DNA of 64,000 nucleotides from Thermoplasmatales archaeon E-plasma (GTDB lineage Archaea > Thermoplasmatota > Thermoplasmata > Thermoplasmatales > Thermoplasmataceae): assembly GCA_000496135.1 (NCBI GenBank), contig KI542674.1, positions 434,001 through 498,000 on the forward strand. The letters run 5' to 3'. A program made the position numbers and the translations under genes. Positions within the stretch are counted from its first letter, which is position 1; every line of letters starts with the position of its first letter. A model generated the notes under the pieces. That model was given only the letters and a program-made list of their open reading frames with translations, ran no database searches and was not told where the DNA came from. Shown piece by piece: positions 30,602 to 52,408 of the stretch.

Positions 30602-30635
30602 TTCAGTTATCTCCTGCCAGAAAAGCGATTTTCGC

Positions 30636-30730
30636 CAGATGCTTTCCTTCGCCGGTATTACCCGGATCAGGTTCAAGGGTCGGCAGATATTCCTGCCCTC
30701 TCAGCACTTGTCGCTCCCCTAGCTGTAACT
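30636..30730 (-). promoter_or_regulatory. TPP riboswitch (THI box)
   Basis: On the minus strand the stretch holds the two strictly conserved TPP aptamer blocks: GTGCTGAGAGGGCAGG (CUGAGA loop) and GACCCTTGAACCTGATCCGG with GTAATACCGGCGAAGGAA. It starts GGGGAGCGACAAG and lies directly before the thiamine transporter binding-protein gene. A short hairpin, GGCGAAAATCGCTTTT, follows between the aptamer and the Shine-Dalgarno GGAG and could serve as expression platform. When TPP is bound, transporter synthesis is expected to fall. Aptamer identity is clear; whether control is on transcription or translation is inferred. Confidence 0.96.
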
Positions 30731-42304: not shown

Positions 42305-43729
42305 CTATTCAAAATAAGAATCTTCAATCATCCTCAAATAAACATAAATAAGAGATAGCAGAGATATTATGGAACCCGCCATTACTATTATGTAGTCGTA
42401 CCCGGTTATATATTGAGCAAGGGCAGCTGGCATTATCATGAGATGATTCATTGTTTCGATTATGAGCATTGAATACTGGAAAGGGTTGAAATATTGAATT
42501 GATGCCATAATAGAATTTATTGCGCTTACAGAACTGGAAAACACATTCTTCGAACCATCAAATATGATCTCCATAATTGTGAATGCTGTTACCCATGCGA
42601 TTTCAATAATGGTGGCTAATACCATAATTAAGTTTCTTGATTTTTCGGGATTTTTTGAAAGAGATCCAATGGAATAAATGACTGCCATGAAAACTGTGAG
42701 GAAGAATGCTGAAGCAATGATGGATATGGGATAAGCTGCAAAAGGTTCTGTATGAGTGTAGAAAGAATATGCTATGATTGATCCTATACCAATTATGAGG
42801 CCGGTGCCGACTGGTATAATGGAGTGTATTATGGGTTCTTTCAGCGAAACCATGCTTTCTTTTGCCGAGGATGGTTCACCTTTTTTTGTCTTAATTTTGG
42901 GTGGCGTGAAAAATATCCCTGAAAGGATGATTATGGGTATTATGAAAGAAACCTGAAATATGTCATTCCATATTATTTGATTGTAATTCTTCTGCAAATC
43001 AGTGAGATTTGTGACTTCACTGCTGTTAATGTAATAATATTTCGTGAATATTCCACCTGTAGTGAACTGATAGTTTTCGTCTGTTTTAAGATATTTTGAA
43101 ATTGGTATAACTATATTTGTAAAATTCTGGTATGTCCCCAGAAGTTTTTCCTGTGGATTGGATCCGTATTGGATTGTGTGATTGCTCTTATAGCAGCTCA
43201 ATGTAACGCAGGAGACATAATTTCCAATAGATGATCCAGGTATAAGATAATAATGAACCATTATTGCTGGTTCGTTTGGATCAGATGGTGATTGCACCAT
43301 AGCAGAAAAGTAATCAGCTTCGCCACCTAAACTATAATAATCATTAGAAATACTATTAAAATTGTGCGTTCCAAAGATTGTAGTGTATGATAATTTAGAT
43401 GCATTGAATGAATTACCGGGAGGTTGGGAACACTCGCTGCAATAGCGTAGTACATTGATAATAGCGCACCCATTTTGGTTAGTTACATTTAGACGCGTTC
43501 CCGAATAAAGAATCCCTAATCCTTTTACTGGCTCTCCAAACTGATTATATACATAAATTGGAACTCTGTAATATGAATTTGTAGACCTAAGAAAAGGCAA
43601 TATGGCGACATTTATTTTTGTTGTATCTGTATGCTCTTCTTGAAAAGTATAGAGGGAAAAAATGGATGCTGAAAGAGCAAAGACAAGAACTATTGCAACA
43701 ATCTTTCCTGCCTTAGGAGATTCAAACAT
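42305..43729 (-). CDS. Membrane protein with large extracytoplasmic domain, paired with the G1/Hint gene
   Basis: From the ATG at 43729 the product is 474 residues: one N-terminal helix (IVAIVLVFALSASIFSLY), a 230-residue external domain with several Cys (YCSECSQPPG and CVTLSCYKSN), and about six C-terminal helices. A TATA-like TTATATTTTTAAA lies about 27 bp upstream, supporting a leaderless start. The arrangement looks like the permease half of an ABC-2-type exporter or a membrane tethering protein, but there is no ATPase next to it. It follows the G1/Hint gene on the same strand, with similar external Cys usage. Confidence 0.68.
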   Translation of the reverse strand: MFESPKAGKIVAIVLVFALSASIFSLYTFQEEHTDTTKINVAILPFLRSTNSYYRVPIYVYNQFGEPVKGLGILYSGTRLNVTNQNGCAIINVLRYCSECSQPPGNSFNASKLSYTTIFGTHNFNSISNDYYSLGGEADYFSAMVQSPSDPNEPAIMVHYYLIPGSSIGNYVSCVTLSCYKSNHTIQYGSNPQEKLLGTYQNFTNIVIPISKYLKTDENYQFTTGGIFTKYYYINSSEVTNLTDLQKNYNQIIWNDIFQVSFIIPIIILSGIFFTPPKIKTKKGEPSSAKESMVSLKEPIIHSIIPVGTGLIIGIGSIIAYSFYTHTEPFAAYPISIIASAFFLTVFMAVIYSIGSLSKNPEKSRNLIMVLATIIEIAWVTAFTIMEIIFDGSKNVFSSSVSAINSIMASIQYFNPFQYSMLIIETMNHLMIMPAALAQYITGYDYIIVMAGSIISLLSLIYVYLRMIEDSYFE

Positions 43730-43770
43730 TGTAATGATAAACGAGTGTGGTTTAAAAATATAACTCACAC

Positions 43771-44094
43771 TCAAACCGTAGGATTTGATATTTTCATGTC
43801 AAGTAAAACTCCATGATCGATGAAATTATTGAAAAGACTTGTTATGACATCGTATACCTCTATTTTCTTTTCCACGATCTTTATGCTGTATATCGTTATG
43901 AGCATGTGATTCATAGGATCGAACATATAGTCTCCCACCTTTAGGTGATCAGGGTTGATGACCCACCCTTCGAACGATGAATTTACTATATAAATCGGTT
44001 GATTTGTTAATGTAACCCTTAAGAATCCATTGTTGATCGATATTGTAGCATTGTCGAAAGTGCTATTTTTGTAAAGGAGTCTTCCCAACGACAT
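43771..44094 (-). pseudogene. C-terminal part of a Hint (intein/hedgehog-type) domain, out of frame with the upstream gene
   Basis: This frame, which is open from about 44170, reads PIQSIKIGTEVYEYNYTSGK, then LRVTLTNQPIYI (block B; the usual His of TxxH is Gln here), GWVINPDHLKVGDYM, and IEVYDVITSLFNNFIDHGVLLD, the typical C-terminal Hint motif. The first Cys and block A (CVAKGSMILTAK) are at the end of the upstream gene in another frame. A single extra A in the AAA before 44165 would explain the break. Together they make a complete domain of about 142 residues. Confidence 0.75.
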
Positions 44095-44155
44095 CTTTCC
44101 AGAAGTGTAGTTGTATTCGTATACCTCTGTTCCTATCTTAATTGACTGTATGGGT

Positions 44156-45505
44156 CTATATCGCTTTGGCCGTAAGAATCATTGAACCTTTTGCGACACA
44201 ACCTCCTCCTATGCACGGTCCACCGTTTACATATCCATAGTTGTAATAACTGTTTATGTAGGTTGCTGTCCAGGTATTTGTTTGCACATTCATATCATTA
44301 CCAATATTTTGATCCCCATAATATTGCGATAAATAATAATAATCATACTGCCCTTGTTCATAAAAAGTTGTCACAAAATTAAGAGGAATTTGACCACTCC
44401 AATAATACATATCTGAAAATTGTATTGATGAAAATTTAGCGACCTGAGATATAATTTTATCCGTTTCAGGTGCTTCTACTATATATTGGACGTAGTGAGG
44501 CGTAAAGGAATGTGCGCAATCAGTGGTAGACCAAGATATTCCATTTGATAGATCAGCGACGCAAAAATAAAATCCGTTACTAACGTGGTATACACCAGCC
44601 GCAATTGTATTTCCGTTCTGTATCCCATCACTGCAAGACTGGCCCGGGTATAAACAGGAAGCCTGAGCATTATATATTTCGTAGAAAGCACAAGGATGGT
44701 GGTTATAATCTATCGATTCCCATTGATAGCCAGTTTGAGCCAAACAGTTTGTTCCCCCAGAACCGCCTGAAAGTCCGACCCAAGCACTAATTGCAGGATA
44801 TGATGGGCATGCAACATAATAGGATGGAATTTCAAACCCTGGAGCAGTGATATCTGCGCAGGCACTTGATATACAATTTTGGGAGTACTGATTTTGATAC
44901 CCATCCCAATTAAAACTACTCTGTGACTGGGACATAGAAGTACTTGTATTTGATGCTATAGACAAAGTTGTCAAATTAGCCACTCCGACAGTAAACTGAA
45001 TATTCATCGGAGCACTGATTTCCTTATGATTATTTATGCCAAACCCTATTAGGTTCCTGTAACTCTGAAGATAGCTGTAGTTGTTTCTCTTTATAAGAGA
45101 ACCTGAGAGGGGTTCGGCATAGATATATAATTGAACTTTTCCAGTATTCTGATCAAATGAAGTTCCAACCCTTACTTGTGACATATTGACATTCTGGCTC
45201 TCAAAATAATTTGCAATCCTTGTCATATTATTTTCAGAATTTAAGAGAATGACGTCATTTTTTAACCCTGCCGAGAACGATTTATGATGATTGTGGTTAA
45301 GGGATTCGTTTACATAATGTGTTACCAATTGATTAATACCCGAAATTGAAACAGAATTTTGATTTTCCATCAATTGATATTGCTGTTCTGGAGAGACAGA
45401 TAACGAAGAAGTTCCCTGGTTAAGGGCACTTTGTACTGATAAACCTATTACCAGAACCAAAACAGATACTACTATCATTGCTAATGCTTTATTCCTTTTG
45501 TTCAT
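44156..45505 (-). CDS. Secreted G1 (glutamic/eqolisin-type) peptidase-like protein with C-terminal Hint start
   Basis: From ATG 45505 (GAGG 5 bases upstream) the product is 449 residues with a signal/anchor helix (residues 9-27). Residues 238-350 match the peptidase G1 core: AISAWVGLSGGSGG, LAQTG (Q257), then HYVQYIVEAPET (E344), the Gln/Glu catalytic pair of eqolisins with a normal spacing of 87. Eight or more Cys suggest disulfides. These acid proteases fit an organism living at low pH. The protein ends at CVAKGSMILTAKAI, the first block of a Hint domain (Cys codon at 44198-44200) that continues in another frame. Confidence 0.75.
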   Translation of the reverse strand: MNKRNKALAMIVVSVLVLVIGLSVQSALNQGTSSLSVSPEQQYQLMENQNSVSISGINQLVTHYVNESLNHNHHKSFSAGLKNDVILLNSENNMTRIANYFESQNVNMSQVRVGTSFDQNTGKVQLYIYAEPLSGSLIKRNNYSYLQSYRNLIGFGINNHKEISAPMNIQFTVGVANLTTLSIASNTSTSMSQSQSSFNWDGYQNQYSQNCISSACADITAPGFEIPSYYVACPSYPAISAWVGLSGGSGGTNCLAQTGYQWESIDYNHHPCAFYEIYNAQASCLYPGQSCSDGIQNGNTIAAGVYHVSNGFYFCVADLSNGISWSTTDCAHSFTPHYVQYIVEAPETDKIISQVAKFSSIQFSDMYYWSGQIPLNFVTTFYEQGQYDYYYLSQYYGDQNIGNDMNVQTNTWTATYINSYYNYGYVNGGPCIGGGCVAKGSMILTAKAI

Positions 45506-45766
45506 CAAAACCTCAACCCCTCCCCCCGATATAAATATTTCGTGATAAATATTGTCACTTCCACTGCAATGGTATTCCGAAGACACAATTGTATTTGCAA
45601 CAATAATTTTCCATGACTATTCATTAAGATATTCGGTTTTCTGAAATCTTTTTATTCAAGTAATTCCAGTAATATTTCAGAATGAAAGAATAAATAGGGA
45701 CCCATGCCAAAGAAATTCCATAGCATATGGTGAAAACTTTATTTATCCATAGGACTTTAATTGAGT

Positions 45767-52121: not shown

Positions 52122-52122
52122 G

Positions 52123-52205
52123 CGCTGGGAGGGAGATTCGAACTCCCGAGCTACGAGAGCACAGGCTTTCCAGACCTGCGCCTTACCAGGCTAGGCTATC
52201 CCAGC
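52123..52205 (-). tRNA. tRNA-Ser (GGA anticodon)
   Basis: Minus strand, 83 nt. Acceptor GCTGGGA pairs with TCCCAGC, with discriminator G. The anticodon stem CAGGT/GCCTG closes loop CTGGAAA, anticodon GGA. A long variable arm and GGGAG-TTCGAAT-CTCCC T-arm are typical of tRNA-Ser. CCA is not encoded. The gene has no intron. Confidence 0.93.
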
Positions 52206-52324
52206 TTAACTTGGGCAGATTGTGTGTTGATATATAATTTTTTGACATTTATGCACAATAAATCCCATATGTTTTGCGGGTATGATAATGCGGATATCAA
52301 AGATCTTGAAAAAGACAACCATTA

Positions 52325-52408
52325 CGCCCGGGGGGGAGATTCGAACTCCCGAGCTACGAGAGCAACAGATCTCGAATCTGCCGCCTTACCAGGCTGGGCT
52401 ACCCCGAC
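52325..52408 (-). tRNA. tRNA-Ser (CGA anticodon), with an extra base in the acceptor stem
   Basis: Minus strand, about 84 nt. The anticodon stem GCAGA/TCTGT closes loop TTCGAGA, anticodon CGA. D-arm, long variable arm and T-arm match the other tRNA-Ser. The acceptor 5' strand GTCGGGG expects a 3' strand CCCCGGC plus G73, but the sequence is CCCCGGGCG, one G too many. Either a bulge, a mismatched terminal pair or a base-calling error in the G/C run. Otherwise intact, no intron, no CCA. Confidence 0.85.

Follow-up and report, generated by a model that had tools for sequence, protein, structure and literature searches.

The window, as we call the whole 64,000-nucleotide stretch of DNA analyzed, carries on its minus strand a gene for a predicted secreted glutamic peptidase of family G1 whose C-terminus runs, across a single frame change, into a Hint domain. 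This tail is one of a class of Hint domains, here termed Q-Hints, in which glutamine stands at the position of the block B histidine and of which we find no description in the literature. We are evenly divided over the reading that an exported G1 peptidase had a Q-Hint added at its natural C-terminus, and that this kind of tail, self-acting in intact members of the class, has been severed here. The G1-Hint fusion is a single and probably broken case, and its interest lies in the tail class that it revealed.

The peptidase and its interrupted Hint domain

The 449-residue open reading frame of the original prediction is present at 45505-44156 (ORF 1, P0001; minus strand, as are all features of the gene) and comprises the G1 peptidase, a linker and Hint block A. 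Its start was placed at ATG 45505 rather than GTG 45586 because GAGGT lies just 5′ of the ATG, and it ends at TAG 44158-44156, a stop that arises from the frame change. Inspection of the sequence shows an N-terminal hydrophobic segment (residues 1-27; 45425-45505), either a signal peptide or an anchor, which together with 11 cysteines at positions 211-436, the Cys-rich region noted originally, is compatible with an exported protein. A Pfam search of the ORF matched PF01828 (Peptidase_A4, equivalent to family G1) over residues 199-370 (44396-44911) with an E value of 3.1e-11 and a score of 43.5 bits (cut-off 22.3). The two residues originally proposed as catalytic, Gln257 in LAQTG (44735-44737) and Glu344 in YIVEAP (VQYIVEAP; 44474-44476), are invariant across six aligned G1 rows and, by way of L014, a paralogue elsewhere in the same genome (E 3.8e-27), correspond to the catalytic dyad of aspergilloglutamic peptidase (AGP): the LIQTG Gln and WIxE Glu of L014 fall on the known dyad of AGP structure 1Y43. 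The assignment as a secreted G1 peptidase is thus upheld as a prediction from sequence. An AlphaFold2 model of the peptidase, built from an alignment of five rows only, reached a pLDDT of 34, too low to judge the double seven-stranded beta-sandwich fold of the family, and a direct look-up of the peptidase in the genome contigs found no relative.

The boundary between peptidase and tail is marked by comparison with L034, a G1 relative of 413 residues without a Hint that is 30% identical over the G1 part. L034 ends in NSYYDYSYVNG; the window protein reads NSYYNYGYVNG and continues with GPCIGGG-CVAKGS. Because L034 stops exactly where the linker (GPCIGGG, residues 429-435; 44201-44221) begins, we infer that a complete peptidase gained linker and Hint. 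Block A follows in the first frame as Cys436 (Cys1 of the Hint) and VAKGSMILT (44159-44200; alignments A2 and A3), and the remaining Hint occupies the second frame as P0002 (43774-44163, 130 codons; stop at 43773-43771); once joined, it was recognized by the PT-HINT profile, AlphaFold2 modeling and fold matches in the PDB. On its own, the joined Hint scores an E value of 1.9e-5 and 25.3 bits with PT-HINT, slightly below the 27.7-bit cut-off, and the joined C-terminal part matches the solved BIL domain 2LWY (E 0.0019). Modeled from an alignment of 24 relatives, it reaches a pLDDT of 87.2 and a pTM of 0.81, and a Foldseek search with this model returned 51 PDB matches at E ≤ 0.001, with BIL domains and inteins on top: the best was BIL2 of Tetrahymena thermophila (E 4.8e-10, TM 0.76), C. 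thermocellum BIL 2LWY also matched (E 4.5e-8, TM 0.76, 2.2 Å), and others included DnaB and DnaE inteins and the hedgehog Hint 1AT0. Judged by profile and model, then, the C-terminal domain across the frame change is a Hint fold, as originally proposed from the block A motif CVAKGSMILT and its continuation in the next frame. An NCBIfam match to histidine racemase, with an E value of about 2e-4 and 21 bits where the cut-off is 400, was rejected as spurious. A PT-HINT search of the genome itself gave no match, because the frame change splits the domain.

Cys436 supplies the Cys, Ser or Thr required at position 1 of block A, and the block F Asp is kept (VYDVI; 43849-43851). The block B His of other Hints is Gln here. 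At the C-terminus (LLDMKISNPTV) there is neither a terminal His-Asn, whose position is taken by Leu-Asp, nor a C-extein, and the chain stops about 10 residues or fewer past the Hint without a sterol- or lipid-binding extension.

The original prediction had located one frameshift between 44100 and 44220, and a single frame change is what we find. Since the second frame is bounded by TGA 44181-44179 and the first by TAG 44158-44156, both are open together only between these stops, and the one-base (+1) change must fall within 44178-44159. The joined reading (P0003) takes GCCA as A at this point, which is not within a long homopolymer; beyond it, the second frame is open and Hint-like up to its stop. 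As it stands, the gene would yield the peptidase with a 14-residue Hint stub, a product resembling its Hint-less relatives. It is hardly credible that two unrelated adjacent ORFs simply lie side by side here, unfused. They do occupy different frames, and other G1 peptidases have no Hint, but block A and the GGGC junction are in the first frame with the remaining Hint in the second, and the joined halves can be aligned over their whole length with intact tails of the form GGGCVA(K/W/F)G, each encoded in one frame. A programmed +1 frameshift that yields the peptidase both with its Hint and without it is very improbable; although both products would be sensible proteins and the frames overlap briefly, the site has no recognized slippery motif, and L081, L082 and L084, which are intact relatives, do without a shift.

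Genomes of the same genus bear on how the frame change arose. In G032, whose flanks are about 83% identical, window positions 43837-45730 are replaced by about 100 bp, and the remnant at the site, the last 26 Hint codons only (69% identity), shows that the tail was already present in the ancestor and that the genus is in the course of losing the gene. The Hint-less relative L003 is intact in G032. In G031, the gap between the flanks (85% and 76% identity) measures about 220 bp, and no part of the gene was found in it. Q-Hint genes are broken elsewhere as well, by stops in G036, G380 and G034 and by a frame change in G361, whose G376 counterpart is intact. From the loss in same-genus genomes and these other broken genes, we consider the window copy to be probably decaying. 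The main alternative is an assembly or sequencing error in an organism whose G1-Hint gene is intact, which we regard as a real possibility even if not the one we favor: but for this one change, the second frame reads open and Hint-like to its end, and in the comparison with the same genus no other gene among the flanking ones compared is broken. Against an error stand the deletion of the gene in same-genus genomes, the broken Q-Hint genes of the four other genomes and the lack of a long homopolymer. The gene 3′ of the peptidase encodes a 489-residue membrane protein (42305-43774, minus strand) and is kept at the corresponding position in G032 and G031, where the peptidase is absent; it is probably outside the system. 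Elsewhere, the window holds a TPP riboswitch (30627-30730, minus strand; 63.3 bits) and two adjacent tRNA-Ser genes with anticodons GGA and CGA (52122-52408, minus strand).

A class of glutamine-bearing Hint tails

Searches with the window tail, combined with fetched neighborhoods, gave a set of 25 Q-Hint tails from 20 Thermoplasmata genomes (alignment A3). Gln occupies the block B His position in all but one of the 25, and that one has Glu; the Glu-bearing subgroup (L089 and L090 of G009) is the only one with Glu for Gln. Such constancy makes Gln a trait of the class rather than a product of decay of the window gene, so that the block B His-to-Gln replacement originally seen (CAA, 44001-43999) holds true, but not as a local defect. 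Cys1 is present in 21/24 members, with Ser in two and Tyr in one, and the block F Asp in 20/24; these two and the Gln are among the better conserved columns. No terminal His-Asn occurs in the class, the members share a location at the extreme C-terminus of the protein, and 16 of the 25 have a GGG linker ahead of Cys1. When Q-Hints were aligned with a canonical Hint of the same phylum by hhalign, the Gln fell onto the His and the final Asp onto the penultimate His, and the class profile matched 2LWY with an E value of 8.3e-13. When a tree was built together with canonical Hints from elsewhere in the phylum, the Q-Hints grouped in a single branch (support 99/96); the window tail, 41-48% identical to five Hint tails in other Thermoplasmata genomes, falls in a group of seven rows (98/88) with tails from other families of the order and class. 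Among the members scanned, the class is not captured above cut-off by any Pfam or NCBIfam model, and Q-Hints were not found in viral contigs. Domain-wide depletion of His was considered and rejected, because its content is only slightly lower in Q-Hints than in canonical Hints (2.0% vs 2.7% over the whole domain) and only the catalytic positions differ.

In the intact members examined, the tail closes exported proteins of varied kinds. One host (L080, G361) is a sedolisin (Pro-kumamolisin, E 2e-22), an acid protease unrelated to G1; others are surface proteins with CarboxypepD_reg and DUF2341 domains and proteins without known domains. By contrast with this breadth, the pairing with a G1 peptidase is singular. 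PF01828 is present in 23/77 genomes of the family and 27/390 of the phylum, yet the window gene is the only PF01828 locus that coincides with a Hint match from the searches with the tail, and the same fusion was found in none of the other genomes in these two sets. Read across the frame change, the combination singled out in the original prediction is there, but it was seen only in this genome. To judge from the sequences compared, G1 peptidase and Hint do not form a conserved pair, and tails of this class end other exported proteins. We found no paper that brings Hint domains together with either Thermoplasmatales or archaeal peptidases.

Within 8 kb, G361 (L080/L127) has the sedolisin-Q-Hint gene, another Q-Hint gene that is interrupted by a frame change and has an intact G376 counterpart (L082), and a Hint-less G1-like peptidase that reached 35 bits with PF01828 in one search and for which hmmscan lists no family. 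A Micrarchaeota bin (L148:2132-4414) has a Q-Hint preceded by a pilin-like N-terminus, a Big_1 domain and a stretch rich in Ser/Thr, and a Thermoplasmata bin from that sample series also has a Q-Hint tail. Transposase genes adjoin Q-Hint genes at L128:5702-10223 (G414, DDE_3) and, by reading, in L143 and L110, and may help the tail to spread. A DUF929 gene stands before or after a Q-Hint gene in three genomes (L038, E 1.2e-42; L037 and L040 by resemblance). In G169, nine tandem Hints, mostly with the canonical His, come after the rhodanese, thioredoxin and subtilase domains of a 2927-residue ORF (L092:150-8930), and two further ORFs (L093 and L112) have three and up to six Hints.

Possible chemistry of the tail

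Hint domains convert the bond before Cys1 to a thioester, normally with the assistance of the block B His (PMC7765530, PMC6333167). In intact Q-Hint members, we propose that the Hint would act once, outside the cell: Cys1 would attack the carbonyl of the preceding Gly, turning the peptide bond into a thioester, and water or another nucleophile would then resolve it, so that the host protein would either shed its tail or become linked to an acceptor. Among known Hints, Hog domains hand the thioester to cholesterol (PMC5874633) and BIL2 forms isopeptide bonds (PMC8616854). Only the N-terminal step would take place; because the terminal His-Asn and the C-extein are missing, neither C-terminal cleavage nor splicing is expected.

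Several observations weigh against a self-acting tail. The block B His is usually essential in well-studied inteins (PMC6333167, PMC7765530), Cys1 is Tyr once and Ser twice, so some copies may be inert, and the Hint has no sterol- or lipid-binding extension behind it. The competing explanation is that the Q-Hint is a catalytically dead fold serving as a structural cap or as a binding or sorting domain, with no cleavage at all. Besides the loss of the block B His and the block G His-Asn and the three members of 24 with Ser or Tyr for Cys1, its recruitment by many unrelated exported proteins is what a sorting or binding domain would show. We nevertheless think a dead fold somewhat unlikely, since a scaffold need not keep Cys1, Gln and the block F Asp among its better conserved columns, and reactive inteins without the block B His exist (PMC7765530, PMC6333167).

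If the tail is self-acting, the class-wide Gln may be an adaptation to acid surroundings, a more tentative suggestion, made on the ground that His would remain protonated at low pH. The idea rests on the presumed habitats of the lineages, taken at group level; Thermoplasmata and Micrarchaeota have been reported together from acidic sites (PMC6627985). The most far-reaching version is that Q-Hints are acid-adapted domains without the catalytic histidines that use a Gln-based site to form a thioester at the C-terminus of proteins exported by archaea, two unrelated acid proteases among them, for release or covalent fixation to the envelope, and so are an archaeal counterpart of hedgehog processing; taken as a whole, we judge this unlikely.

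Little is known of how Thermoplasmata, which lack a wall and dwell in acid, retain the enzymes they export or let them go, and a self-acting C-terminal tail common to proteases and other surface proteins would, if true, provide a simple answer. A natural Hint class with Gln for His would likewise show how the N-S acyl shift can proceed without the block B His, and Q-Hints working in acid would be possible protein-ligation tools for strong acid.

Relation to known systems

The peptidase shares the Pfam domain, the Gln/Glu dyad and an export signal with the MEROPS G1 family, which includes aspergilloglutamic and scytalidoglutamic peptidases and bacterial pepG1 (PMC3009609) and of which archaeal members were previously reported from Picrophilus, Acidilobus and Caldivirga. 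It differs from them in an extra N-terminal region of about 170 residues, in being Cys-rich and in the Hint tail. The tail is not an intein, given that it has neither the terminal His-Asn nor the C-extein nucleophile. Inteins without the block B His, such as Tko CDC21-1 with its compensating Lys (PMC7765530; see also PMC6333167), are a precedent for a Hint that works without that residue; they splice, whereas Q-Hints have no C-extein and bear Gln class-wide.

The top structural and profile matches of the Q-Hints are BIL domains (2LWY; Tetrahymena BUBL1 BIL2, 6TMM/6Y75), which have the same fold, likewise occur on varied, nonconserved hosts and have the block A Cys and the block F Asp. Q-Hints are set apart by Gln for the block B His, the absence of a terminal His-Asn, their position at the protein terminus and their archaeal origin. 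Leu-Asp in place of the terminal His-Asn excludes the window tail from BIL type A, and the missing block B His excludes it from type B, which keeps all intein motifs but the C-terminal one. In architecture, Q-Hint proteins are like eukaryotic Hedgehog/Hog and Hog-only genes (PMC2362128), where a variable secreted N-terminal part is followed by a C-terminal Hint that has no block G Asn and for which the N-terminal reaction alone is expected. Hog domains keep the block B His and have a sterol-recognition region after the Hint, both of which Q-Hints lack; with no such region, the window tail does not belong to the Hedgehog/Hog group.
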